A stretch of 48,387 nucleotides of DNA. Source: a virus. Below the pieces are notes generated by a model. The model did no database searches. It was not told the origin of the DNA and saw nothing but the letters and a program-made list of their open reading frames with translations. The position numbers and the translations under genes were made by a program. Position 1 is the stretch's first letter, and every line of letters starts with the position of its first letter. Below are positions 965 through 28,739 of this stretch, piece by piece. Location: positions 1-48,387 of IMG/VR virus record IMGVR_UViG_3300027733_000075; one strand, 5' to 3'.

Positions 965-1453
965 ATGGCTGATTTATTAATGAAAATGCCGATACCTTAC
1001 GAACCGAAACGCCAAAACCGTTTCATCTTAAGGTTTCCGTCAAGTTTGGGTATTAACGAGTGGTTTGTAGAATCTACATCAAGACCTCATATTCAAATTG
1101 CACCAGTTGAGATACCGTTCTTAAACACTTCAACTTTCGTTGCTGGTAGATTTAACTGGCAAACAATTAACGTAACGTTTAGAGACCCAATTGGACCTTC
1201 AGCGGCTCAAGCTCTTATGGAGTGGGTTCGTCTACATGCTGAATCAGTGACAGGTCGTATGGGTTATGCTGCGGGTTACAAAAAAGACATCGACCTTGAA
1301 ATGTTGGACCCAACAGGTGTTGTTGTTGAGAAATGGATTCTTTACGGAACATTCTTAACAGACGTTAACTTCAATGCGTTAGACTACAAAACAGATGCTT
1401 TAGCGTCTATTACTGCGACATTGAGAATGGATAGATGTGTACTAGTTTACTAA
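965..1453 (+). CDS. 19: Tail tube protein, T4 gp19 family
   Basis: A 162-aa protein, nearly the same length as T4 gp19 (163 aa), the subunit that stacks as hexameric rings to form the inner tube of a contractile tail. The N-terminal segment RQNRFILRFP, followed by the pattern VEIPFLNTSTFVAGRFNWQT, fits the start of gp19-type tube proteins. A middle helix around APSAAQALMEWVRLHAES-like sequence and the C-terminal strands ending DALASITATLRMDR also fit. Its codons end in C more often than those of its neighbours (TTC, AAC, GAC, CGT), as expected for a very abundant protein. A strong intrinsic terminator follows it directly, so it can be expressed apart from the genes downstream. The chaperone and tape measure genes come next, the usual order in tail operons. 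Confidence is high for a tube protein. Confidence 0.85.
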   Translation: MADLLMKMPIPYEPKRQNRFILRFPSSLGINEWFVESTSRPHIQIAPVEIPFLNTSTFVAGRFNWQTINVTFRDPIGPSAAQALMEWVRLHAESVTGRMGYAAGYKKDIDLEMLDPTGVVVEKWILYGTFLTDVNFNALDYKTDALASITATLRMDRCVLVY

Positions 1454-1525: not shown

Positions 1526-2269
1526 ATGGATAATCAAACAATCGACTACGGTCAACAAAATTTTACACTACCACACGATGTGGTACCATTACCTTCTCAA
1601 GGTATTTTCTACAAAAACAAAAAGAAATCATTAAAAGTTGGTTATCTTACCGCATCAGATGAAAACATTTTGATGGGTGGAACTAATGATTTAACAATGA
1701 CTTTATTAAGAGCAAAAATTTACGAACCAGATGTTAGGGTTGAAGACCTAATTGAAGGTGATGTTGAGGCAATCTTAATATTTTTAAGAAACACGGCATT
1801 TGGTCCTGAGATGACATTAAATCTTACAGACCCATCAACTAAAAAAGTATTTCAAACAAATGTTAGGTTGGATGAACTATCTATCATTAACGGACAACAA
1901 CCAAATGAAGACGGTAGTTTTACAATTCTTTTACCAAAATCACAATCAACAATTAAAATTAAACCTTTAAATTATGGTGAAATTATGGAGATTGGTAGAT
2001 TAGCAGAAACATACCCCCAAGGCAGAGTTGTTCCAAGAGTTACTTGGAGATTACAAAAAGAAATCATTGAGATTGACGGTTCAACCGATAAAGCAGTTAT
2101 TGCAAAATTCATCGAGTCAATGCCAATTGCCGATTCAAAGTTCATTAAAAATTTTATGAATGAGAACGAACCAAGATTGGATATGACTAAAATTATAATG
2201 GCCCCGTCAGGAGAAAGACTAACAGTGAATGTTGGTTTTGGGGTCGACTTTTTTCGCCCTTTCTTCTGA
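1526..2269 (+). CDS. Tail assembly chaperone / baseplate hub assembly protein (T4 gp26-like)
   Basis: A 247-aa protein whose N-terminal part (VVPLPSQGIFYKN, then LKVGYLTASDENIL) matches the pattern of the T4 base plate protein family of T4-like phages. It lies between the tail tube and tape measure genes, the place where nearly all long-tailed phages encode tail assembly chaperones, often as a short and a frameshifted long form. Here the zero frame ends shortly after GAC TTT TTT CGC, and the +1 frame continues with a conserved-looking tail (see the entry at 2229). The start codon lies just after a terminator hairpin with no room for an ordinary ribosome binding site. Its likely role, by analogy, is to bind the tape measure protein and guide tube assembly; it need not be in the finished virion. 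The family call is fairly sure. The chaperone role is an inference from position. Confidence 0.72.
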   Translation: MDNQTIDYGQQNFTLPHDVVPLPSQGIFYKNKKKSLKVGYLTASDENILMGGTNDLTMTLLRAKIYEPDVRVEDLIEGDVEAILIFLRNTAFGPEMTLNLTDPSTKKVFQTNVRLDELSIINGQQPNEDGSFTILLPKSQSTIKIKPLNYGEIMEIGRLAETYPQGRVVPRVTWRLQKEIIEIDGSTDKAVIAKFIESMPIADSKFIKNFMNENEPRLDMTKIIMAPSGERLTVNVGFGVDFFRPFF

Positions 2270-2408
2270 TTATAGAAAAAATCAGATAGATGAGTTTTAC
2301 TATCTGAATACTTTAATGAAAATTACATATCAAGATTTTGAGCGAATGCCAATATTTGTTAGAAAATATTTATTGGACAAATGGCTCGAAGATAATAAGA
2401 AGGACTAA
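2229..2408 (+). CDS. Overlapping +1-frame extension of the tail chaperone (probable frameshift product)
   Basis: This reading frame overlaps the end of the previous gene and carries a 50-residue segment beginning ALSSDYRKNQ. It contains TYQDFERMPIFVRKYLLDKW, whose MPIxxRKY pattern I associate with chaperone C-termini of related T4-like phages. It can be reached by a +1 shift at TTT CGC (2252-2257): tRNA-Phe reading UUU can move to UUC and keep cognate pairing while the rare Arg codon CGC waits in the A site. That gives a fusion of 243 + 50 = 293 aa. An ATG at 2229 in this frame would instead allow a separate 59-aa protein. Either way the segment looks coding: it is hydrophilic at the end and ends just before a hairpin. 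I favour frameshifting because of the tail-chaperone precedent. Confidence 0.65.
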   Translation: MLVLGSTFFALSSDYRKNQIDEFYYLNTLMKITYQDFERMPIFVRKYLLDKWLEDNKKD

Positions 2409-2453: not shown

Positions 2454-4310
2454 ATGGCAGGAAATCCAAAAGACGAAGGTAGTGCTAAAGAACTTAAAGA
2501 AACCGTTGATAGTTTAGGGTCACCTATTGAAAAAATATTAGACTCTATCGGTAACATGTACCAACAGGCCGATAAACTAAATAATTCTTTTGTTCAGGGT
2601 AGAACCAGATTAGATGAAATGAACGATGCGGTTTCTAGAGCGGCCGCAGGAGTTATTAGATTAGGTGGAGATATTAATGATGTTTCAAACACTATGGCAA
2701 AAATTGCCGAAGGTTCGAGACGAAATGTTATTGCAACTGAAGACCAAGTTAGTAAATTATATGCCGCGTCTACAGTATTAGGTGTTGGGGCTAAAGAATT
2801 GGTTGATTCTTTTTCAAAAGTTGGGTATGAAACATCTCAAATTGGACCAAATTTAGAAAAATCTATTGAATATGTTCAAAGTATTGGTTTGAATGCTAGA
2901 ACTGTAATGACCGATGTTGCTAATAACATGGAGTTAATGAATAGATTTAACTTTAACGATGGTGTTCAGGGGTTAACTAAAATGGCGGCTCAAGCTTCAA
3001 TGTTAAGATTTGACATGAAAACTACCGCTGAATTTGCTAATAAAGTTATAGACCCTGAAGGTGCTATTAACATGGCGGCATCATTCCAAAGATTAGGATT
3101 AGCTGTTGGACAATTAGGTGACCCGTTTGCCTTAATGAATGATGCAATTAACGACCCAGGTGCATTACAAGACAGTTTAATCAAAGCCACAAAACAATTT
3201 ACTGAATTTGACGAAAAAAGCAAATCGTTTAAAATAAATCCACAAGGTGTATTAACATTAAGAGAAATGTCTAAAGAGACGGGTATCTCTTATGAACAAC
3301 TTACAAAATCAGCTTTAGCTGCTGCAGATTTAGATAAAAGAGTTTCGGCCATTAATCCTTCATTGAAATTTAAAGACGAAGAAGATAAACAATTCTTCGC
3401 CAATATGGCAACAATGAAAGATGGTGAGTATGTTGTACAACTTAAAGACGATGAAACTGGTAAAGTTGAAACCAAAAAATTAGGTGATATTACTCAGGAC
3501 GAAATGGAAAAGTTAAGGGAACAACAGGCTAATGCTCCCAAAACTTTAGAAGAAATTCAAACAAGTCAATTAGATGTATTAAAAAACATCCAACGAGCAA
3601 TTGAGGGTAATGTCGCCAAAGCAACTTATGGTGTTGCGGGGTCTTCTGCGATTAGAGGTAATTTATTAGGAGCAGATAGAATTACAAGGTCACTTAGTAA
3701 AGCGGTTGATACAACTGTTCCTGGTAGCGCGGTAATAACAGAAAAAGTTAATGACGCTATTAAAGAAATGAGAGATTTATATGTTGCGAATACTTCAGGT
3801 AAGTTAAGTAATGAGGATTTATCTAAAAAAGTTAAAGCAATTGAGGAAGGTATTACAAATACTGCGAGTGGTATGGGTAATAAAGGTATGGAAGCACTTA
3901 AAGATATTCTTCAAAAAACTAACCAAGGTGTTACTGGTTCAAGTACTATTGAAAAAGAATTCAAAAAATATTCTGAAGAACTTTTAACTGCGGTAGGAAG
4001 ACCAACAACTTCCGCAGCTAGTGCGGTTAAATCAAAATCAGCCGCCACAACACAAAAACCAATATCTCTTACAGATGTTTTAGGGGAAAGAACTGTAAGT
4101 CGAAATGCTAGTTTAACAAATACTGAAAGTAAAACTACAACAAGTAAAATTGAGTTTGGTGAGTTTAAAATTACTATAGATACCCCGCCAGGAACTACAC
4201 TAACACAACAACAATTAAATGCGATTTTTAACAGTGACCAATTTAAACAATATGTTTTAAGTTTATCTGACACAAAATCAAATAAAGGTCAAGGTGTTGT
4301 CTCATATTAA
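2454..4310 (+). CDS. Probable tail tape measure protein (gp29 position)
   Basis: A 618-aa, mostly helical protein. The N-terminal half is rich in Ala, Lys, Glu and heptad-like patterns (DSIGNMYQQADKLNNSF, then TRLDEMNDAVSRAAAGV). It follows the tube and chaperone genes, where tape measure genes are found. T4 gp29 is 590 aa for a tail of about 100 nm. At the usual 1.5 Å per residue this protein would set a tail of roughly 93 nm, so length and position agree. The tape measure runs inside the tube, fixes its length and is released with the DNA. A Ser/Thr/Ala-rich linker near residues 520-565 leads to a small C-terminal domain (IEFGEFKITIDTPPG) that may anchor it to the hub or terminator. Direct similarity to gp29 is not obvious by eye, so the call depends on context. 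Confidence 0.68.
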   Translation: MAGNPKDEGSAKELKETVDSLGSPIEKILDSIGNMYQQADKLNNSFVQGRTRLDEMNDAVSRAAAGVIRLGGDINDVSNTMAKIAEGSRRNVIATEDQVSKLYAASTVLGVGAKELVDSFSKVGYETSQIGPNLEKSIEYVQSIGLNARTVMTDVANNMELMNRFNFNDGVQGLTKMAAQASMLRFDMKTTAEFANKVIDPEGAINMAASFQRLGLAVGQLGDPFALMNDAINDPGALQDSLIKATKQFTEFDEKSKSFKINPQGVLTLREMSKETGISYEQLTKSALAAADLDKRVSAINPSLKFKDEEDKQFFANMATMKDGEYVVQLKDDETGKVETKKLGDITQDEMEKLREQQANAPKTLEEIQTSQLDVLKNIQRAIEGNVAKATYGVAGSSAIRGNLLGADRITRSLSKAVDTTVPGSAVITEKVNDAIKEMRDLYVANTSGKLSNEDLSKKVKAIEEGITNTASGMGNKGMEALKDILQKTNQGVTGSSTIEKEFKKYSEELLTAVGRPTTSAASAVKSKSAATTQKPISLTDVLGERTVSRNASLTNTESKTTTSKIEFGEFKITIDTPPGTTLTQQQLNAIFNSDQFKQYVLSLSDTKSNKGQGVVSY

Positions 4311-18115: not shown

Positions 18116-18976
18116 ATGATGAGTTCATTAGACGCCGTATTGGCACAGTACGAAAAAGCACAACAAGGGGGCGGGGCCCAAAGTAAAATGTCGCAAGACG
18201 AAAGAATGAAAAAGTATTTCGCTTTAATCCTTGGGGATAAAGAGAAATCAGGACAGAGAAGAGTAAGAATTCTTCCAACACAAGATGGTAGTTCACCATT
18301 TAAAGAAGCTTGGTACCACGAAATTCAAGTTGGTGGTCAATGGCAAAAATTCTATGACCCAGGAAAGAACGACAATGAGCGTTCCCCTTTAAATGAGGTT
18401 TATGAAGAATTGATGTCAACAGGTAAAGAATCTGATAAAGAGTTGGCGAAACAATACAAGTCTCGTAAATTCTATATCGTAAAAGTTATTGACAGAGACC
18501 GAGAAGAAGACGGCCCAAAATTTTGGAGATTTAAACACAATTACAAGAACGATGGTATCTTGGACAAAATCATTCCAATTTGGAGAAACAAAGGTGACAT
18601 CACTGACCCTGAAAAAGGACGTGACCTTATCATTGAATTGACAAAATCTAAAACACCTGCAGGTAAAGAATACACAAGTGTATCTACAATTATGTATGAC
18701 GACCCAACAGCAATACACGAAGAAAAAGTTCAAGGTGATTCTTGGATTAATGATGAATTGACTTGGTTAGATGTATATTCTAAAAAACCTGTTGACTATC
18801 TTGAGGCAATCGCTCGTGGAGAAACTCCAAAATGGGATAGTGAAAAAGGTGGGTACGTTTATTTAAACGATACTGAATCTACAACATCTATGGGTGGAGC
18901 AAAAAAAGATGAAGCAAAGGCACCTATCGTTGACCCCCAAGCAAATGACGAGGTTGACACTGAATTACCTTTCTAA
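18116..18976 (+). CDS. 32: Single-stranded DNA binding protein, T4 gp32-like
   Basis: A 286-aa protein similar in size and layout to T4 gp32 (301 aa): a short basic N-terminus for self-interaction (LDAVLAQYEKAQQGGG), a core binding domain (RRVRILPTQDG, then FYIVKVIDRDREEDGPKFWR), and an acidic flexible tail. It would coat single-stranded DNA during replication and recombination and load the recombinase and helicase coded next to it. Two oddities. The protein has no cysteine at all, so the zinc site of T4 gp32 (one His, three Cys) cannot form. The tail ends DTELPF, more like the bacterial SSB tip (DDDIPF) that recruits partner proteins than like T4 gp32. Two adjacent ATG codons open the gene; the first is used here. 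It is the first gene after a host-type promoter. Family call is confident. Confidence 0.85.
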   Translation: MMSSLDAVLAQYEKAQQGGGAQSKMSQDERMKKYFALILGDKEKSGQRRVRILPTQDGSSPFKEAWYHEIQVGGQWQKFYDPGKNDNERSPLNEVYEELMSTGKESDKELAKQYKSRKFYIVKVIDRDREEDGPKFWRFKHNYKNDGILDKIIPIWRNKGDITDPEKGRDLIIELTKSKTPAGKEYTSVSTIMYDDPTAIHEEKVQGDSWINDELTWLDVYSKKPVDYLEAIARGETPKWDSEKGGYVYLNDTESTTSMGGAKKDEAKAPIVDPQANDEVDTELPF

Positions 18977-18989
18977 TAAAACAAAACAC

Positions 18990-19025
18990 ATCATGTATGG
19001 TATCTTGTATGGTACCATGCATGAT
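18990..19025 (+). other. Hairpin between ssb and uvsX
   Basis: A 13-bp inverted repeat (ATCATGTATGGTA with TACCATGCATGAT, one G-T wobble as RNA) and a 10-base loop, starting 13 bases after the ssb stop. No good T run follows, so it may attenuate or process the transcript or protect the ssb message rather than end it. Confidence 0.55.
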
Positions 19026-19040
19026 TAATTTATATCATAT

Positions 19041-20045
19041 ATGGCAATAAAGAAAAACGATTTCAGCGCAGTTAAGAAGAAATTCTCAACCTCCGCAAAA
19101 TACAAACCCCAAAGATTTTTTGACTTAGGACAAGATTTCTTAGATGCGGTTGGATTACCTGGTCCTGCTATAGGACATTTGAATATGTTCTTGGGTCACT
19201 CAGATACAGGAAAAACTACAGCATTGGTTAAAACTGCCGTTGATGCTCAGAAAAAAGGTATTCTACCTGTGTTCATTATTACCGAACAAAAATGGTCTTT
19301 TGAACATGCGAAACTTATGGGTTTTGAATGTGAAGAAGTTGTTGATGAATCAACAGGTGAAGTTGATTGGGATGGTTTTTACATCTTTAATAATGACTTT
19401 GACTACATTGAGCAAATTACGGACTACATCAATAGTTTGTTAGATGCGCAAGAAAAAGGTGAGTTAGATTATAGTTTATTATTCTTATGGGATTCTGTTG
19501 GTTCAGTTCCTTGTAAGATGACTTACGAAGGTAAGGGTGGTAAACAACACAATGCATCTACGTTAGCAGACAAAATTGGTATGGGTATCAACCAACGTAT
19601 TTCAGGTTCTCGTAAAGCGGATTCAAAATATGAAAACACATTGGTTATTGTTAACCAACCTTGGGTTGAGTTACCTGACAATCCATTTGGTCAACCAAAA
19701 ATTAAAGCAAAAGGAGGAGAGGCCATTTGGTTAAACTCATCATTGGTATTTTTATTTGGTAACCAAAAAGGTGCGGGAACAAACAAGATTACCGCAACAA
19801 AAGATAAGAGAAGTGTAAAGTTTGCAATTAGAACTAAAGTTTCCGTAATGAAAAACCACATCAATGGGTTAGGTTACGAAGATGGAAAGATAATTGTAAC
19901 ACCACACGGTTTCTTAGCAGGAAAAGAAGCGTCAGAAGAGAAGGTGTCTATTGAATCATACAAAAAAGAATATGCTGACTATTGGAAAGATATTCTTGGT
20001 GTTACTTCATTGGATTTTGACTTAAAAGAAGAAAAAGAAGATTAG
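19041..20045 (+). CDS. uvsX: UvsX/RecA-type recombinase
   Basis: A 334-aa strand-exchange ATPase. Walker A is GHSDTGKTT (residues 52-60), the catalytic Glu region is IITEQKWS (Glu82), and Walker B is LLFLWDSVGS (Asp151). The RecA-type motif KAKGGEAIWLNSSLVFLF is present at about 225-242. T4 UvsX is 391 aa and RecA about 350 aa, so this is a compact member lacking a long C-terminal domain, although it keeps an acidic end (FDLKEEKED). It would form filaments on ssDNA displaced from SSB and drive recombination-dependent replication and repair. It lies after ssb and before the 5' nuclease and helicase genes, a coherent replication and recombination operon. Confidence 0.92.
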   Translation: MAIKKNDFSAVKKKFSTSAKYKPQRFFDLGQDFLDAVGLPGPAIGHLNMFLGHSDTGKTTALVKTAVDAQKKGILPVFIITEQKWSFEHAKLMGFECEEVVDESTGEVDWDGFYIFNNDFDYIEQITDYINSLLDAQEKGELDYSLLFLWDSVGSVPCKMTYEGKGGKQHNASTLADKIGMGINQRISGSRKADSKYENTLVIVNQPWVELPDNPFGQPKIKAKGGEAIWLNSSLVFLFGNQKGAGTNKITATKDKRSVKFAIRTKVSVMKNHINGLGYEDGKIIVTPHGFLAGKEASEEKVSIESYKKEYADYWKDILGVTSLDFDLKEEKED

Positions 20046-20074
20046 TATATTGTTTCACATTTTAAATCACAATC

Positions 20075-21070
20075 GTGATTAAAACATTATTAGTAGACGG
20101 AGATAATTTATTTAAGATAGGATTCCATGGAGCCAAGGATGTGTATAACGACGGGGCTCATGTGGGTGGAGTATTTCACTTTGTGAACATACTCCGCAAA
20201 TTCCTTGATGAACACAACCATGATAAAGTTGTTGTGTTTTGGGATGGAGATTCAAATTCATCTATTAGAAAAAGTCTATACCCACAATACAAAGCGAATA
20301 GAAGACAAGATATGAATGAGTACAAGTACGAATCGTATTTGTATCAAAAGTCTCGTGTTAAACAATACTTAGAAGAAGTGTTTGTTCGTCAGGTTGAGAT
20401 GGTTAGTAATGAGGCGGATGACCTTATTGCATACTATTGTAAGATATCCAAGGATGAGAATATTATTATTTTTTCTGCGGATAAAGACCTAACACAACTT
20501 ATTTCGGAAAGAGTTACAATCTATTCTCCAATTACAAAACAATACTTCAAGAATGGTGATATGATTACCATTAATAAAGTGGACATTCCACATTATAATG
20601 TATTGTTAACTAAGATATTCACTGGAGACAAATCAGATAACATTGACGGTATTGAAGGTCTTGGGGAAAAAACTTTAATTAAATACTTTCCACAAGTGCA
20701 GGAAAAACCATGCACTGTTGAGGAATTACTGTATATTGCAGGAAATATCGAGCAAAAAAAACCAATTAAAACATTGGGTAATATTTTGATTGGTAAAACA
20801 AAATCAACTATACTTGGAGAAGAGTTTTATAACACAAACAAAAAGATAGTTGACCTGACAAATCCTTTAATAACTGATGATGGAAAAGAATTAGTTGAAC
20901 AAATCCTAACTGACACTATAGACCCTACAGATAGGGGATATAAGAACTTAATGAGAATGATGATGGAAGATGGTCTCTTTAAGTATTTACCCAAAAATGA
21001 CGAAGCTTGGGTTAACTTCCTTACACCATTTATGAAATTAACAAGAAAAGAAAAAAGACACAAAAAATAA
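20075..21070 (+). CDS. 5'-3' exonuclease / flap nuclease (T4 RNase H family)
   Basis: A 331-aa nuclease of the FEN/5'-nuclease family, which removes RNA primers and flaps from lagging-strand fragments; T4 RNase H is 305 aa. Metal-binding motifs are clear: LLVDGDNL (Asp8, Asp10), VSNEADDLIAYY, IIFSADKDLTQL, and TGDKSDNIDGIEGLGEKT. The last is the helix-three-turn-helix that grips DNA. The Arg/Lys arch region is near YPQYKANRRQDM. The start is GTG; no ATG lies before the first catalytic motif, so GTG is required. There is no attached polymerase domain, so it acts as a separate enzyme. It sits between uvsX and the helicase gene. Confidence 0.88.
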   Translation: MIKTLLVDGDNLFKIGFHGAKDVYNDGAHVGGVFHFVNILRKFLDEHNHDKVVVFWDGDSNSSIRKSLYPQYKANRRQDMNEYKYESYLYQKSRVKQYLEEVFVRQVEMVSNEADDLIAYYCKISKDENIIIFSADKDLTQLISERVTIYSPITKQYFKNGDMITINKVDIPHYNVLLTKIFTGDKSDNIDGIEGLGEKTLIKYFPQVQEKPCTVEELLYIAGNIEQKKPIKTLGNILIGKTKSTILGEEFYNTNKKIVDLTNPLITDDGKELVEQILTDTIDPTDRGYKNLMRMMMEDGLFKYLPKNDEAWVNFLTPFMKLTRKEKRHKK

Positions 21071-21075
21071 AAATT

Positions 21076-21528
21076 ATGAAAGAGCAAGACAGTACCAAAA
21101 TGGAATTCTTATTGACGTTAAACGACAATATTGTGGTTCAAAGATTTTTCAATGTTAGAGGGTATAATCCTAAAGCAAAAAACTCTTTAGATTTACATTA
21201 TTTCTTGGAACAGTTCCAACAAGAATTACATTATCATTTAAAAATGAAAACCGTTATCTATATGATTGATAACAAAGACGCGATTTGTGCGGACCCAACA
21301 ATTATGGAGACATCATACACTGATGGTAAAGAAGATTTTAACATTTATGTTAAAGTTGGGGAACAGACAATTTGTCATAGAAATTTTGATGGAAAATTAT
21401 ATCCACCAAAAGTTCGTTATACCGTTGATGTACGACCATTCTTAAAAGAAGTTTTAAGAGAATTGACTGACATTTTTTCAGCCCAAAAATTAAGTTACCA
21501 ATATTTGAACTTTGACCTAAACAGCTAA
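21076..21528 (+). CDS. Uncharacterised protein of the replication operon
   Basis: A 150-aa protein I do not recognise. It starts five bases after the 5' nuclease stop, in the same operon, and precedes the replicative helicase. The sequence alternates strands and helices: MEFLLTLNDNIVVQRFFNVR, then LDLHYFLEQFQQELHYHLKM, and VRPFLKEVLRELTDIFSAQK, and contains three Cys. A second ATG at codon 9 (MEFLLTLND) could be the true start. Its place between nuclease and helicase suggests a replication accessory role such as a helicase loader or regulator, but no motif supports this. Confidence 0.6.
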   Translation: MKEQDSTKMEFLLTLNDNIVVQRFFNVRGYNPKAKNSLDLHYFLEQFQQELHYHLKMKTVIYMIDNKDAICADPTIMETSYTDGKEDFNIYVKVGEQTICHRNFDGKLYPPKVRYTVDVRPFLKEVLRELTDIFSAQKLSYQYLNFDLNS

Positions 21529-21562
21529 ATATTTAATTAAACAAGGGATGCAAATATAACAT

Positions 21563-22936
21563 ATGAACAAGAATTTCGACTACTTAGGGAACACCTTCCA
21601 AATACAACTTTTAAACCAAATTATCGTAGATAAAGAATTTTCTACATCTATTATGGATGTAATAGAAAGTTCTTACTTTGATAACAAATACTTCAAAATC
21701 ATTTTACAAATGACTAAGGAGTATCATGCAAAATACCAATCGACCCCTAACTTTGACACTCTTGACCAAATTGTTAAATCTGAAATCTCGCAAGAAATTG
21801 TTGCTAAAATAGTTCTTGACACACTTAAACAAGTTAAAGACGCTCCTTTTGAAGGAACTCAATTTGTTCAAGAAAAAGCGTTAAAGTTTTGTAAACAACA
21901 GGAACTTCAGAAGGCTATGGACAGAGCCCAAAAAATTATAACAGAAGGTGATTTTGAATCTTATGATAAAGTTGAGGGATTAGTTCGTGAGGCATTACAA
22001 GTAGGCGAAAGAGATTTGGGAACAACAGATATCTTCTCCAACCTTGAGACAGTACTTGACGAGGATTTTAGACACCCAATTCCGATGGGAATACCAGGAA
22101 TTGATAAACTACTTAAGGGTGGTTTAGCAAAGGGTGAGATTGGGGTTATATTGGCTCCTACGGGGGTTGGTAAAACTACCATCTTAACTAAGATTGCCAA
22201 CACAGCATTCAATCTTGGGTATAATGTCCTCCAAATATTTTTTGAAGACAACCCAAAGATTGTACAACGTAAACATTTTACACTTTGGACTGGTATTGAA
22301 CCTGATAATCTTGTAATACATAAAGAAACGGTTATGAGTAAAATTACCGAGATTAAAGAAACTATGAAGAACGAGTTAATTTTAAAAAAATTACCTTCAG
22401 ATTCTATGACTATGAATCAAATCAAAAACCAAATCAGAAAAATGATTGCTGATGGTACAAAGATTGACTTGGTTCTTTTGGATTACATCGACTGTGTTGT
22501 ACCTGAAAGTTCAAGTAAAGACGAATGGAAAGCAGAAGGTTCGGTAATGAGAGGATTTGAGGCAATGTGTCACGAGTTATCATTAGTTGGTTGGACAGCA
22601 ACTCAAGGTAATAGGTCATCAATTTCATCTGAAGTTGTGACTACAGACCAAATGGGTGGGTCAATCAAGAAAGCACAAGTAGGTCACGTTATCATTTCCT
22701 TGGCTAAAACTTTAACACAAAAAGAAATGAATTTGGCAACCATTGCAATTACTAAGTCACGTATTGGTAAAGATGGGGTTGTTTTTGAAAACTGTAAATT
22801 TAACAATGAATTACTTGAAATTGATACTGAAAGTTCAGTAACATTCTTAGGGTTTGAAGAACAACAGGAAGAAAGAAAACGTGATAGAGTTAAAGAACTT
22901 TTGGAAAAAAGAAAACAAAGAGAACAACAATCGTAA
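21563..22936 (+). CDS. 41: Replicative DNA helicase, gp41/DnaB family
   Basis: A 457-aa helicase with a DnaB-like N-terminal helical domain (about 1-155) and a RecA-like motor domain. Walker A is APTGVGKTT (198-206), the catalytic Glu is in IFFEDN (Glu229), and Walker B is [10 protein letters not shown] (Asp307). [10 protein letters not shown] (about 354-363) fits the DnaB motif that senses nucleotide and DNA. The [17 protein letters not shown] segment is typical of gp41/DnaB motif 4. T4 gp41 is 475 aa. It forms a hexamer on the lagging strand and unwinds the fork; a primase is not in this window. The C-terminus is a highly charged helix rich in Glu, Arg, Lys and Gln. Confidence 0.9.
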
Positions 22937-22955
22937 AAAAATAACAAAAATAACT

Positions 22956-23903
22956 ATGGAAAACATTTTAAAAGAAAACCCTAACAGGTTCGTTATCTTC
23001 CCTATTGAACACAATGATATATGGGAGTATTATAAACAACATCAAGCAGCATTTTGGACTGCAGAAGAAATTGATTTAACAAATGATATTCGTGATTGGG
23101 AGAATTTATCAGACAATGAAAAACACTTTGTTAAAAATGTACTGTCATTTTTTGCTGCTTCTGATGGTATTGTAAATGAGAATTTGGCGGAAAACTTCTT
23201 AAAAGAAGTTCAGTATCCTGAGGCAAAATTCTTTTACGGGTTCCAACTTATGATGGAGAATATACATTCATTAATGTATTCTCTTCTTATTGATACATAT
23301 GTCTCAAGTGCAGAAGAAAAAGATGAATGTTTCCATGCAATTGATAGATTACCTGCGGTACAAAAGAAGGCAAAATGGGCTCTTGATTGGATTGAAAATG
23401 CATCTTTCCAAGAAAGATTGGTTGCCTTTGCGGCTGTTGAAGGTATCTTCTTCTCAGGTTCATTCTGTTCAATTTTTTGGATGAAATCAAGAGGAATTAT
23501 GCAAGGGTTATGTAATGCTAATTCATTAATCTTTAAAGATGAAAATCTACACTGTGATTTTGCAATTCACTTGTTGAATAATCACATAGAAAACAAACCA
23601 AGTGAAAAAAGAATTAGAGAAATCTTATTATCTGCATTGGAAATTGAAAAAGAATTTATCACCGAATCATTACCAGTTTCACTTATTGGTATGAACTCAA
23701 ACTTAATGAAACAATATCTTGAGTTTGTTGTTGATGGATTGTTAATTAAGCTTGGTTGTAAAAAAGAATTTAATGTTGAACAACCCTTTAAATTCATGGA
23801 ACAAATTGCGGTTGAAACTAAAGGAAACTTCTTTGAGTCAAGAACCGTAGAATACCAAAAAGCTAAATTAAATGAGACAATTTCTTTTGAGGAAGATTTC
23901 TAA
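22956..23903 (+). CDS. nrdB: Ribonucleotide reductase class Ia, small (beta) subunit
   Basis: A 315-aa radical-generating subunit that works with the large subunit coded next. All di-iron ligands can be seen: Asp40 (WTAEEID), Glu101 and His104 (MENIH), Glu162 (VEGIFF), Glu196 and His199 (DENLH). The radical Tyr is Tyr108 (MYSLL). The sequence style ([24 protein letters not shown]) is closer to eukaryotic R2 than to T4 NrdB, a pattern also seen in Bacteroidota. The C-terminus FEEDF is the likely docking peptide for the large subunit. The frame is open upstream into the helicase gene, but the ATG at 22956 begins the conserved sequence and has an A-rich leader, so it is chosen. Confidence 0.93.
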
Positions 23904-23914
23904 TATAAAACAAT

Positions 23915-26341
23915 ATGATGTCATTAAAAATTAAAAAAAGAGATGGAGAGGACGCTTCCTTTAATCCACAAAAAATTTACAATAGAATTAAAAGAGCTGC
24001 AAAAGGGTTAAATGTTAATTCGGACGAGATTTTTATTAAAGTTATAACTTCAGTACCAACTGAAGGGTTAATTACAACAAAAGAGTTAGATAAACTTGTA
24101 TATGAAATTGCTGCCGCTTATACTGGTAGTCATCATGACTATTCAAGATTAGCATCTTCAGTTGCAATTTCTTCTTACCATAAGGAAACTAAAGATAGTT
24201 TTTGTGAAACTATTATGGAATTACATTCTACTGGCGTAATCAATGAAAAGTTAATTGAAGTTATGAGCTCTTATGGTCATGACAAAATTGATGAGGTTAT
24301 TAATCATGAGAAAGATTATAACTTTGATTACTTTGCGTGGCGTTCATTACAAGAAATGTACTTGTTAAAGACACCTCAAGGTAAAGTAGTTGAAAGACCA
24401 CAACACATGTATATGAGAGTTGCTTTATGGGTAACAAATTCATTTGAAGAAGCTGTTGAATACTACAACTCATTGTCAAACCAACTTATTTCACCAGCAA
24501 CACCAATCATTATTAATTCAGGAACAAAAGTCCCTCAATTAGCATCTTGTGTATTACATTATAATAACTCAGATTCACGTAATGGTTTATTACAAACCCT
24601 GAATGATATTTCAACTTATTCTTCAGACGCTGCGGGAATTGGATTATCAATGTCTAATATCAGAAGTAAAGAAAGTCGTATTAATTCATCAGGTGGATTT
24701 GCGGGTGGATTGTTAAAGTATTTAAAAATTGTTAACGAGTCATTGAGATTCTTTAACCAACAAGGAAGACGACCTGGTAGTGCTGCTATATATATTGAAC
24801 CATGGCACAAAGATGTTATGGACTTGTTAGATATCAAAAAGAACACAGGTGCGGAAGAATTAAGAGCAAGAGATTTATTCACAGCTCTTTGGATTCCCGA
24901 CAACTTCATGAGAGCAGTAAAGGAAAGTGCTGATTGGTATTTATTCTGCCCTAACGATATTATTAAAGCTGGCATTAAACCACTTCAAGAATGTTACGGT
25001 AGTGAATATGAAACAAATTATAACAAAGCTGTTGAGTTAGGTATTGGTAAAAAAGTTAAGGCTCAAGATATTTGGACTAAGATTATTGAATCACAAGTTG
25101 AGACAGGTGTCCCTTACTTATGTTCTAAAGACAATGCTAATAAGAAAACAAATCACCAAAACATTGGTGTGATTAAACAATCAAACCTTTGTAATGAGAT
25201 TTACCAATATACTGACGAGGATACTACGGCAATCTGTACATTATCTTCAATGGTGTTGAAAAACTTTATTGAAAAAGGTGAGTTTGATTTTAATTTACTT
25301 TATAGTGAAGTTAGAAAAGTTGTTAGAGCTCTTAACAAAGTTATTGACATTAACAGTTACTCAACTGAAAAAGGTAGAAAAGGTGGATTGGACCAAAGAG
25401 CAATTGCGATTGGTACTCAAGGTTTAGCTGACGTATTTTATTTGATGGATTACATTTTCACATCTGAAGAAGCTAAGAAATTAAATAAAACTATTTTTGA
25501 AACTATATACTTTGCAGCAATCACTGAAAGTATGGAATTATGTAAAATAATGATACACAAACCATACGCTCACTTTAAAGGTTCACCAATGTCAAAAGGG
25601 GTATTCCAATTTGATATGTGGGGGTTAGATTATGAAGGGTTAAGTGGTCTTTGGAATTGGGATTCTTTAAAAGAAGAAGTTAAAACTTACGGTGTTTGTA
25701 ACTCATTATTTACAGCTCAGATGCCAGTTGCATCTTCAGCAAAGATTACAGGTTCATTTGAAATGACAGAACCAGCTCACTCTGCGTTATTTAACAGACG
25801 AGTTGTTGGTGGTGAGATTATGATTGTAAACAAGTATCTAATTAATGACTTTGAAAAAATCGGTATTTGGAGTGAAGAGTTAAAGAATGAAATTATTATG
25901 AACGAAGGTTCTATTCAGAATATAAACTTTAATAACCATCTTGACACTGAAGATAAAAACTATATAAAGAAAGTTAAACGAACTGAACATTTGATAAGTA
26001 AGTATAAAACAATTTGGGAGATATCTCAAAGAGAATTAATTGATATGGCGGCAGATAGAGCTCCATTTATCGACCAATCTCAATCAATGAATATCTATAT
26101 GGCTAATCCAACATTGTCTAAGATTACTTCATCTCACTTTCATTCATGGGAGAAAGGTTTGAAAACTTTATGTTATTATGTTAGAACTAAAGCAATTTCA
26201 ACAGGAGCAAAACATTTGGCGGTAGATGTGTCAAAAATACAAAAACCTAAAGTTAAACTTGAAGTTCCAAAATTTGAAGTTACTGAGTTAACAACAAAAC
26301 CTGAAGATAGTCCATTTGATTGTTTTGGATGTTCATCATAA
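23915..26341 (+). CDS. nrdA: Ribonucleotide reductase class Ia, large (alpha) subunit
   Basis: An 808-aa catalytic subunit that reduces ribonucleoside diphosphates to deoxy forms for phage DNA synthesis. An ATP-cone-like regulatory domain lies at about 1-95 (KKRDGEDASFNPQKIYNRI). The active site has Cys212 (LASCVLHY), Asn424-Cys426-Glu428 (NLCNEI) and Cys441 (AICTLSS). The C-terminal redox pair is Cys803 and Cys806 (CFGCSS). The 15-residue gap between Cys426 and Cys441 matches mouse R1 rather than E. coli NrdA. It follows nrdB by 11 bases; the nrdB-nrdA order is the reverse of T4. Two ATG codons open the gene; the second may be used. A terminator follows immediately. No glutaredoxin or thioredoxin gene is in the window, so host reductants may be used. 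Confidence 0.95.
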   Translation: MMSLKIKKRDGEDASFNPQKIYNRIKRAAKGLNVNSDEIFIKVITSVPTEGLITTKELDKLVYEIAAAYTGSHHDYSRLASSVAISSYHKETKDSFCETIMELHSTGVINEKLIEVMSSYGHDKIDEVINHEKDYNFDYFAWRSLQEMYLLKTPQGKVVERPQHMYMRVALWVTNSFEEAVEYYNSLSNQLISPATPIIINSGTKVPQLASCVLHYNNSDSRNGLLQTLNDISTYSSDAAGIGLSMSNIRSKESRINSSGGFAGGLLKYLKIVNESLRFFNQQGRRPGSAAIYIEPWHKDVMDLLDIKKNTGAEELRARDLFTALWIPDNFMRAVKESADWYLFCPNDIIKAGIKPLQECYGSEYETNYNKAVELGIGKKVKAQDIWTKIIESQVETGVPYLCSKDNANKKTNHQNIGVIKQSNLCNEIYQYTDEDTTAICTLSSMVLKNFIEKGEFDFNLLYSEVRKVVRALNKVIDINSYSTEKGRKGGLDQRAIAIGTQGLADVFYLMDYIFTSEEAKKLNKTIFETIYFAAITESMELCKIMIHKPYAHFKGSPMSKGVFQFDMWGLDYEGLSGLWNWDSLKEEVKTYGVCNSLFTAQMPVASSAKITGSFEMTEPAHSALFNRRVVGGEIMIVNKYLINDFEKIGIWSEELKNEIIMNEGSIQNINFNNHLDTEDKNYIKKVKRTEHLISKYKTIWEISQRELIDMAADRAPFIDQSQSMNIYMANPTLSKITSSHFHSWEKGLKTLCYYVRTKAISTGAKHLAVDVSKIQKPKVKLEVPKFEVTELTTKPEDSPFDCFGCSS

Positions 26342-26350
26342 ATAATAATA

Positions 26351-26382
26351 AAAATCCCAACTATGTTGGGATTTTGTTTTTT
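26351..26382 (+). terminator. Intrinsic terminator after nrdA
   Basis: An 11-bp perfect stem (AAAATCCCAAC with GTTGGGATTTT), a 3-base loop TAT and a G-T6 tail. It ends the replication and nucleotide module and separates it from the second structural block. Confidence 0.9.
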
Positions 26383-26385
26383 AAT

Positions 26386-26394
26386 CTATTTATT
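26386..26394 (+). promoter_or_regulatory. Candidate late promoter box (distal) before gp25
   Basis: CTATTTATT directly after the nrdA terminator and 38 bases before the gp25 ATG (counted from the TATTTAT core). It is one of two boxes in this gap. Confidence 0.4.
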
Positions 26395-26411
26395 AGAAAA
26401 AACTAGGACAT

Positions 26412-26422
26412 TATATTTATAG
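26412..26422 (+). promoter_or_regulatory. Candidate late promoter box (proximal) before gp25
   Basis: TATATTTATAG almost touching the gp25 start codon. It is too close to the ATG for a normal leader if it is a -10 element, so the distal copy may be the working one, or this one makes a leaderless message. Confidence 0.3.
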
Positions 26423-26424
26423 GT

Positions 26425-26895
26425 ATGGCAGATGGAATTACTTACGGTATTAATTTTCCTTTTAGAGATTCTAGAAGGGGTGATTATTTAGAGTTAACAG
26501 AACTTGAAGCTCAAGAAATTAAAGCTGATTTAGTTCACTTGTTGTTAACAAGAAAGGGGTCACGATATTTTTTACCTGGTTTTGGTACAAGATTATATGA
26601 ATTTCTTTTTGAACCCTTTGATGGTTTAACATTTAATGCGATTGAATCTGACATAAGAGACGCTATTGAGAATTTTATGCCAAACTTATTAGTTAATAGT
26701 TTAAGTATAACGCCAGCTGACCCTCAAGAAGAAATTGACATTGCAACAGGACAAAATACTGTTGGAACTAGTGAGTCATCAATTTATAGATTCCCTGGTA
26801 AAGGTACTTCAGAGTATACTGCAAAAATAAGATTAGATTATTCTACAAATGGTTCAACATATGCTCAGAGTGATTTTGTGATTATTAATATTTAA
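26425..26895 (+). CDS. 25: Baseplate wedge protein gp25 family
   Basis: A 156-aa protein of the gp25 (lysozyme-like fold) family, a core wedge and sheath-initiating protein in all contractile tails; T4 gp25 is 132 aa. The typical pattern is present: LVHLLLTRKGSRYFLPGFGT, then RLYEFLFEPFD, and FNAIESDIRDAIENFMPNLLV. Most family members have a Glu-Pro-Arg (EPR) motif at the last position, which pairs with the wedge partner. Here the segment reads FMPNLLV, so Glu and Arg are missing. A C-terminal segment of about 50 residues includes a polar loop (about 107-135). It opens the second structural block and is followed after five bases by the gp6 gene, the same order as gp25 and gp6 homologues in many contractile systems. 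Confidence 0.87.
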   Translation: MADGITYGINFPFRDSRRGDYLELTELEAQEIKADLVHLLLTRKGSRYFLPGFGTRLYEFLFEPFDGLTFNAIESDIRDAIENFMPNLLVNSLSITPADPQEEIDIATGQNTVGTSESSIYRFPGKGTSEYTAKIRLDYSTNGSTYAQSDFVIINI

Positions 26896-26900
26896 TAGAA

Positions 26901-28739
26901 ATGGCAAATAACAAAATATCATACACTACTAGAGATTATCAGTCAATTAGAACTGAACTCTTAAATTATGCTAAAACTTACTATCCTGATTTAATTCAAG
27001 ATTTTAATGACGCTTCGGTGTTTTCGGTATTTTTAGATTTAAATGCTGCGGTTGCAGATAACTTAAATTATAATATTGATAGAAGTATTCAAGAGACTGT
27101 TTTACAATATGCTCAACAAAGGTCTTCAATTTATAATATAGCTAGAACTTATGGTTTAAAATTACCAGGTCAAAGACCATCAGTTTCATTAGTTGATTTT
27201 TCTATTACTGTACCAGCATATGGTGATAAAGAAGATGAAAGATATCTTGGAACTTTATTAAGAGGTTCGCAAGTTGTTGGGGCTGGAGTTGTTTTTGAAA
27301 ATGTTTATGATATTGATTTTGCGTCCCCATATAATGCACAAGGTTTTCCTAATAGATTAAAAATACCAAATTTTAATGCTAATAATGTATTAGTTAATTA
27401 TACTATTACTAAAAGAGAAGTTGTTGTTAACGGGATAACTAAAGTATTCAAAAGAGTTATTGGTGCAAATGATGTAAAACCTTTCTTTGAATTATTTTTA
27501 CCTGAAAAAAATGTGTTAGGTATTACAAGCGTTTTGTTAAAGAATGGAACTCAATATACAAATACACCTACAACAGCTGAATTTTTAGGTGCGGAGAATA
27601 GATGGTATGAAGTAGATGCCTTAGCTGAAGATAGAGTTTTCATTGAAGACCCAACAAAAGTTTCAGACCAACCAGGTATTAAAGTTGGTAGGTATATTCA
27701 AACACAAAATAGATTCATTACTGAGTATACTCCTGAAGGTTTTAAAAAGATGACATTTGGTGGAGGTACAAACACTGCACAAGACCAATTAAATCAATTT
27801 ACAACTTTAGGTACAACATTAGAGTTACAAAAATACTCAAATAATTTTTCATTAGGTTCTACGTTAGCACCAAACTCAACTTTATTTATTCAATATAGAA
27901 TTGGTGGTGGATTAGCGACAAACTTAGGAACAAACGTAATTAACCAAATTGGTACCGTTTCATTTTTTGTTAATGGACCGTCAGAGACAACAAACTCTGC
28001 GGTGGTTAATTCATTGAGATGTGTTAACGTAACTGCAGCGGTTGGAGGTGCGGGAGTTCCTTCATTAGAAGAAATTAGGAATTATGTATCATTTAACTTT
28101 GCAGCACAAAAAAGAGCGGTAACAGTACAAGATTACGAATCAATTATTAGAAACATGCCAGCTCAATTCGGGGCACCTGCAAAGGTATCAATCACTGAAA
28201 ATGACAATAAGATTTTAATTCAAATATTATCTTATGATACTTCAGGTAAATTAACAAACATTGTTTCAAACACATTAAGACAAAATATTGCAAATTATTT
28301 ATCAAACTATAGAATGATGAATGACTATATTTCAATATTCAGTGCTGAGGTTATTGACTTAAGTGTAGATATTTCAATTGTGTTAGATTCTGCTCAAAAC
28401 TCAGGACAAGTTATATCAAGTGTTGTTGATAAGATTTCTGCTTACTTTAACCCACAAACGAGAGAGTTGGGTCAAAATGTATACCTTTCTGAACTTAGAA
28501 GTATTGTTCAGAATACTAATGGGGTATTAACAGTTGCAGGATTAGATGTGTTTAATGAAGTTGGAGGTCAATACTCTTCGGCAGAAACTTCTATGGTTTA
28601 TACAAATGAGGAGACAAAATTAATAGGGCCTGTTGATGATACCATCTTTGCTCAACCATCTCAAGTTTACCAAATCAGATACCCAGGTAAAGACATTAGA
28701 GTGTCGGTAAAAAATTTCCAATCAGTTACTTTTTCGTAA
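26901..28739 (+). CDS. 6: Baseplate wedge protein gp6 / baseplate J family
   Basis: A 612-aa wedge protein; T4 gp6 is 660 aa. The N-terminal helix and loop pattern (YTTRDYQSIRTELLNYAKTY, then DFNDASVFSVFLDLNAAVAD) is typical of gp6/gpJ proteins. The C-terminal half has the conserved block KRAVTVQDYESIIRNMPAQF, then LRQNIANYLSNYRMMNDYIS and LSELRSIVQNTNGV. In T4, gp6 dimers form the inner ring that holds the wedges together and starts the conformational change on contraction. The gene lies between gp25 and a giant protein in the gp7 position, which agrees with T4-type wedge gene order. Confidence 0.88.
   Translation: MANNKISYTTRDYQSIRTELLNYAKTYYPDLIQDFNDASVFSVFLDLNAAVADNLNYNIDRSIQETVLQYAQQRSSIYNIARTYGLKLPGQRPSVSLVDFSITVPAYGDKEDERYLGTLLRGSQVVGAGVVFENVYDIDFASPYNAQGFPNRLKIPNFNANNVLVNYTITKREVVVNGITKVFKRVIGANDVKPFFELFLPEKNVLGITSVLLKNGTQYTNTPTTAEFLGAENRWYEVDALAEDRVFIEDPTKVSDQPGIKVGRYIQTQNRFITEYTPEGFKKMTFGGGTNTAQDQLNQFTTLGTTLELQKYSNNFSLGSTLAPNSTLFIQYRIGGGLATNLGTNVINQIGTVSFFVNGPSETTNSAVVNSLRCVNVTAAVGGAGVPSLEEIRNYVSFNFAAQKRAVTVQDYESIIRNMPAQFGAPAKVSITENDNKILIQILSYDTSGKLTNIVSNTLRQNIANYLSNYRMMNDYISIFSAEVIDLSVDISIVLDSAQNSGQVISSVVDKISAYFNPQTRELGQNVYLSELRSIVQNTNGVLTVAGLDVFNEVGGQYSSAETSMVYTNEETKLIGPVDDTIFAQPSQVYQIRYPGKDIRVSVKNFQSVTFS

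Follow-up and report, generated by a model that had tools for sequence, protein, structure and literature searches.

Frameshifting in tail-assembly chaperone genes, mostly in the −1 direction, is a classical case of recoding, and the short and long chaperone genes of T4 were also known before this work. Vladimirov, Gautam and Davidson reportedly identified the T4-like chaperones in 2022, under a title said to point to a mechanism other than frameshifting. A 2016 review described T4 as the exception to tail-chaperone frameshifting (PMC5009743). Another source counts gp26 and gp51 of T4 among the hub assembly chaperones and gives gp51 as essential and of unknown function (PMC3004832). Both the PRFect paper (PMC10885494) and PMC12846349 attribute the finding of short and long chaperone genes among T4-like phages to Vladimirov et al. 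2022; PMC12846349 also credits that work with poly-T −1 signals in these phages, which have apparently been reported already. According to the PRFect paper, forward frameshifts have no general motif identified so far (PMC10885494). Here, we describe a locus for the tail-assembly chaperone of a T4-like myovirus in a 48,387-nucleotide stretch of viral DNA (IMG/VR record IMGVR_UViG_3300027733_000075, positions 1 to 48,387; the window below). As judged from its sequence and that of its relatives, the locus very probably yields a short and a long chaperone through a +1 slip of the P-site tRNA at UUU_CGC. We found no literature report of a +1 frameshift in a T4-like chaperone or of UUU_CGY as a programmed bacterial site, which is not proof of absence.

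Conservation of the Slippery Site

The chaperone frame (frame 0) ends in GTC GAC TTT TTT CGC CCT TTC TTC TGA, codons 242 to 248 running from the first TTT to the stop, and the +1 open reading frame (ORF; 2229–2408) continues for 50 residues after the slip codon (Table 1). The sequence is as a preliminary description of the locus had stated, with a 247-aa frame that reads TTT TTT CGC CCT shortly before its stop and 50 residues in the +1 frame. The site does not have the canonical −1 heptamer X_XXY_YYZ, as the phase is C_TTT_TTT and the downstream domain lies in the +1 frame. CGC had been called rare and AGA dominant, which agrees with our counts of 5 (1.2%) and 332 (78.5%) among the 423 arginine codons of the window. 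Among the listed window genes, in-frame TTT CGN is found once, at the slippery site.

All of the 80 best IMG/VR relatives contained TTTTTTCGY, a frame-0 stop and a +1 frame open past that stop, the contig ending inside the extension in two of them (L018 and L054). To lessen bias, we searched IMG/VR again with a pattern allowing every synonymous codon. This gave at least 120 contigs, and in each of the 80 that were read the slip codon was TTT and the A-site codon CGC or CGT, followed by CCT TTC TTC; unlike the slippery site, the adjacent glycine and phenylalanine codons varied. Sequencing error was rejected because the same arrangement was seen in all 80 of the first relatives and in at least 120 contigs. 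Dereplication of both sets gave 73 lineages, which we call the window group. The synonymous choice at the site is fixed: the slip codon is TTT in all 73, though TTT makes up 66% of the phenylalanine codons in these genes, and the A site is CGC in 41 and CGT in 32, though AGA dominates among arginine codons. The frame-0 stop is TGA or TAA, or lies a few codons further in rows with GGA.

Coding Capacity of the +1 Frame

Beyond the frame-0 stop, the ratio of nonsynonymous to synonymous substitution rates (dN/dS) of the window-group extension was 0.18 in the +1 frame and 0.84 and 1.73 in the other frames, the main frame having a ratio of 0.16. For a sister group, consisting of 71 dereplicated relatives of Mel-JY01 and bringing the total to 144 lineages, the ratio for the extension was 0.47 against 0.18, computed from few pairs. 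By this measure, the extension evolves as protein in the +1 frame only. Together with the conserved site, its coding character supports the programmed +1 frameshift that the preliminary description had proposed.

The same extension could be the product of an independent small gene of 59 aa, translated separately from the ATG at 2229. Such an ATG is found in most close relatives, ORFs with their own ATG exist in the distant lineages L179 and L185, and a cyanophage ATG three codons past a −1 site is conserved in 36 of 36 cases. The ATG at 2229 is dispensable; it falls in the codon pair AAT GTT, which varies to AAC GTN in relatives, and a +1-frame ATG is unavailable in 23 of the 73 window-group and 37 of the 71 sister lineages. 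ATG, GTG and TTG are all unavailable in 2 and 27 lineages, respectively, and some relatives (e.g., L113 and L204) have a +1 stop immediately before the slip site. Separate initiation would also leave the frozen TTT_CGY without reason. As many lineages have no ATG and some neither GTG nor TTG, we rejected an independent start as the general explanation and consider a separate gene in the window highly improbable. A check set beforehand, conservation of TTT CGN without a conserved ATG in the second frame, thus came out in favor of frameshifting, with CGY in the A site of all 73 lineages.

Homology and Structure of the Products

T4 has two PF12322 paralogues: gp26 (208 aa), whose terminal LKEFFELL coincides in position with the slip site, and gp51 (249 aa), which extends about 40 residues beyond that point. 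The frame-0 product of the window matched PF12322, the T4 gp26/gp51 family, with 26.6 bits (E = 5.6e-6), above the curated cutoff of 24.5, and phrog_150 (“baseplate hub”) with 37.4 bits (E = 3.7e-9). In profile comparisons, the extension matched gp51 tails alone with E = 4.1e-4, and gp51 tails combined with the −1-frame domains of cyanophages and KVP40 with E = 4.7e-7 and a score of 34.9, column-shuffled controls scoring at most 15.5. The annotation of KVP40 likewise records a domain similar to the 40 C-terminal residues of gp51. Comparison of the whole fused profile with whole gp51 in hhalign was weak (probability 9.6), the tail-only comparison being the informative one. Adding the extension raised the PHROG score by 6.8 bits in the window; relative to reversed controls, L084 and L082 gained 3 to 5 bits, and SP-15, LIS04 and immuto gained nothing. 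On these profile matches, the +1 extension is homologous to the C terminus of T4 gp51, and the two products would therefore be the short and long forms of the chaperone.

The frame-0 protein and the extension were folded apart with AlphaFold2. The frame-0 model (predicted local distance difference test, pLDDT, 85) matched the SP-15 baseplate hub subunit in Foldseek with a template modeling score of 0.81, and the extension was predicted to form three helices (pLDDT 90.5). Comparison with the PDB gave no significant match; an HK97 tail-assembly chaperone was placed second (E = 0.8, probability 0.60), a hint only.

The Site in Distant Relatives

Six distant records from the phage collection, 23–30% identical, were examined, and five of them had a +1 extension at the same position. 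The sites of these five are TTT_CGT in the cultured Streptococcus phage GXN1, TTT_CAC in the cultured Bacillus phage SP-15, TTT_TGG in Mel-JY01, TTT_CTA in the megaphage LR756508 and TTT_TTT_A in LIS04. The cultured Flavobacterium phage immuto has TTT_CTT_TGG. In the sister group, the site is TTT_TGG in 68 lineages, TTT_TAC in 2 and TTT_TTC in 1, always followed by CCT, so that TTT_YNN is kept in 71 of 71. The common rule read from these sequences is UUU_YNN, as tRNA-Phe (anticodon GAA) can re-pair on UUU or UUC after a +1 move. The UUU_CGN motif of the preliminary description is kept in the window group and is one form of this wider rule, alongside UGG, UAC, CAC and CUA. In L191, L192 and L193, sister-type chaperone genes (TTT_TGG or TTT_TTC) were seen on contigs binned to Flavobacteriales and Winogradskyella metagenome-assembled genomes, plus one other bacterium, pointing to Bacteroidota hosts for the sister group.

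The U-run is of six in 71 of the 73 window-group and of seven in 62 of the 71 sister lineages, and TTT is likewise fixed in the E site, a setting in which tRNA-Phe on the second UUU could move back two bases within U6. This −2 ribosomal shift would give the same long product with an extra phenylalanine (DFFFALSS). Its re-pairing is impossible in L198 (TTC TTT CGC), in L170, L172, L175, L177 and L180 (TTC TTT TGG), in GXN1 (TTC TTT CGT) and in LR756508 (AAC TTT CTA), yet all of these short-run lineages still carry the +1 extension. The T6–T7 homopolymer of most lineages could instead cause transcriptional slippage, where one U lost from some mRNAs would fuse the frames without a ribosomal frameshift and give exactly the +1 frame. 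A run of T6 is short for slippage by RNA polymerase, and the arrangement persists where the run is T3 or T4. As both explanations would need the U-run, yet lineages with U3–U4 retain the arrangement, the +1 slip in the P site is the best reading, and the occurrence of UUU_Y sites at this position in independent lineages supports it. We regard the −2 shift as improbable and give transcriptional slippage little chance.

Other Solutions among T4-like Phages

In P-SSM2, KVP40, Atu_ph07, PA5oct and S-SM2 (L323–L327, in this order), a gp51-like C-terminal domain lies in the −1 frame and the gp26 gene ends with the heptamer U_UUU_UUC, which 36 of 36 dereplicated P-SSM2 relatives also carry. The −1 frame of PA5oct is without an ATG, and in KVP40 and the cyanophages the domain is annotated as a separate small “gp51.” In the distant members L169 and L087 (LR756511), too, the domain was observed in the −1 frame, where it follows T_TTT_TTC. 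The preliminary description had regarded a +1 UUU_CGC site in a T4-like chaperone as notable; frameshifting as such is not foreign to T4-like phages, as −1 heptamers are found at the same place in the phages named above.

When a tree was built from the shared part, the gp26 and gp51 proteins of T4 type formed one clade (98/95) within a larger clade with KVP40 and the cyanophages. The +1 users were compatible with a single clade and −1 users were placed on both sides of it, with moderate deep support. The comparison of lineages suggests that −1 gave way to +1 once, at a homologous position.

Upstream RNA Signals

Upstream of the slip site, codons 226 and 227 of the window group read RCC CC without exception, and codon 239 is GGG throughout, allowing the pairing RCCCC/GGGGY. 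The end pair of this hairpin is G–U in 38 lineages, A–U in 23, G–C in 11, A–G in 1 and A–C in none (permutation P = 0.008, with relatedness ignored), and the hairpin was the sole structure predicted by RNAalifold in a 138-nt region. The case for it is comparative, because the window sequence 2195–2290 folded alone favors other pairings (z-score −2.2). RNAalifold predicted no downstream stimulatory structure, and no convincing hairpin was found in the sister (TGG) group. We also considered a pseudoknot between the loop sequence GGAGAA and a downstream UUCUUC. It is compatible with the sequence, but its outer pairs vary without compensation and its 3′ arm would lie inside the ribosome, and it was not adopted.

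A Shine–Dalgarno (SD)-like GGAG is found at −42 from the slip codon in 73 of 73 window-group rows, compared with 36% of rows in synonymous shuffles. In the sister group, 73% of lineages have GGAG between −48 and −25 (synonymous shuffles, 32%). Across both groups, GGAG or AGGAG was observed 31–49 nt upstream of the slip site, the spacing not being fixed. The element appears too distant for a push of the RF2 type and would suit a stacked second ribosome. The conserved hairpin of the window lineage and the SD-like GGAG of both groups are new here.

Proposed Mechanism

We infer that the majority of ribosomes stay in frame 0 and make the short chaperone of 247 aa, whereas a minority would stall when the P site contains UUU with its tRNA-Phe and the A site the rare CGC. 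The tRNA would then step one base forward to UUC, a codon that its GAA anticodon matches perfectly. Translation would resume at GCC in the +1 frame and give a long form of 293 aa whose C-terminal domain has three helices. In analogy to lambda G/GT and T4 gp26/gp51, the short form may coat the tape measure protein and the extra domain of the long form may recruit the tail tube. In the window lineage, the RCCCC/GGGGY hairpin folding just behind the ribosome probably favors the forward step.

Some observations weigh against this reading. The +1 ATG at 2229 is present in the window itself. The codon before the slip codon (window 2249–2251) is TTT in 72 of the 73 lineages, which a pure P-site slip does not strictly need, weak E-site pairing being one possible explanation. 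In L179 (2501–3350) and L185 (2501–3350), there is no slippery site, and a separate ORF that begins with an ATG just past the frame-0 stop encodes the domain. This is the arrangement that the preliminary description had named as evidence against a frameshift; it was seen only in these two distant contigs, and it is an alternative way to express the C-terminal domain. Finally, the support for the hairpin comes mainly from invariant pairs. We think doubtful a fuller model in which a stimulator of a new kind drives the +1 shift: the hairpin would re-form directly behind the ribosome, at the place that an SD helix would occupy, and push it forward, while the SD-like element 31–49 nt upstream would hold a stacked trailing ribosome.

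Genomic Context

The chaperone gene sits between a gp19-like tube gene and the tape measure position, as in the frameshifted G/GT and TAC-N/TAC-NC loci. The Pfam gp19 score of the upstream product (965–1453) was below the cutoff. The tape measure call in the window is based on position and a weak match, and the corresponding gene is annotated as tape measure in LIS04 and immuto. Elsewhere in the window (18116–28739), we observed T4-like genes for a gp32-like single-stranded DNA-binding protein, a UvsX-like recombinase, an exonuclease, a DnaB-like helicase, ribonucleotide reductase, gp25 and a baseplate wedge protein.

Table 1. Features at the chaperone locus, in window coordinates
Feature	Position	Strand	Details
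Short tail-assembly chaperone (TAC-N, T4 gp26-like), frame-0 product	1526..2269	+	247 aa; PF12322, phrog_150, AlphaFold2, Foldseek, position
+1-frame extension, predicted C-terminal three-helix domain of long form (TAC-NC)	2256..2408	+	50 aa + stop
Putative slippery site TTT TTT_CGC	2249..2257	+	P-site slip codon TTT 2252–2254, A-site CGC 2255–2257
Double-coding stretch CCT TTC TTC and frame-0 stop TGA	2258..2269	+	CCT 73/73, TTC 73/73, TTC 72/73 dereplicated relatives
Hairpin 5′ arm GCCCC	2201..2205	+	RCCCC 73/73
Hairpin 3′ arm GGGGT	2240..2244	+	GGGG 73/73; ends 7 nt before slip codon
SD-like AGGAG	2209..2213	+	GGAG at −42 from slip codon in window
Tail tube protein (gp19-like), upstream neighbor	965..1453	+	phrog_4542 E = 2.6e-25
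Candidate tape measure protein, downstream neighbor	2454..4310	+	618 aa; weak phrog_10613 E = 0.027 and position

Comparison with Known Systems

Frameshifting by the simple rule UUU_YNN, and in the less usual +1 direction, appears to take place in a very large group of T4-like phages, most of them uncultured. The 144 dereplicated lineages offer ample material for comparing a natural +1 site in bacteria and make the roles of the P site, the A site and the upstream RNA testable. If the hairpin does push the ribosome, it would do without an SD sequence what the RF2 element does with one, and might suit hosts with little SD use.

The locus shares with lambda G/GT the position of the gene between tail tube and tape measure and the short and long forms with a common N terminus; lambda shifts by −1, whereas the window group would shift by +1 at UUU_YNN in a chaperone of the T4 gp26/gp51 family. 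The proteins are homologous to T4 gp26 and gp51, the end of gp26 corresponding to the slip-site position and gp51 having the extra C-terminal domain, but in T4 the two forms come from two genes. Cyanophages, KVP40, Atu_ph07 and PA5oct have a −1 site, U_UUU_UUC, in place of the +1 site of the window group. Listeria phage PSA and HSTV-2 likewise have +1 frameshifts in tail genes, that of PSA occurring at a proline codon in the tail shaft gene, beside a stop codon (PMC5009743).

With RF2 (prfB), which shifts at CUU_UGA with an SD sequence 3 nt upstream, the site would share a bacterial P-site +1 slip with upstream help. It differs from the RF2 type in that a slow sense codon, CGC, and a hairpin within the mRNA stand in place of a stop codon in the A site and an SD helix, the nearest SD-like motif being at −42. 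The likeness to PA-X of influenza A (UUU_CGU, +1), drawn in the preliminary description, holds for the UUU_CGY motif, for the expected slip of P-site tRNA-Phe to UUC and for a functional domain in the +1 frame, as a resemblance of mechanism and not homology. PA-X is an unrelated gene read by a eukaryotic ribosome and has no evident stimulators (PMC5009743), in contrast to the window lineage with its conserved hairpin upstream of the site.
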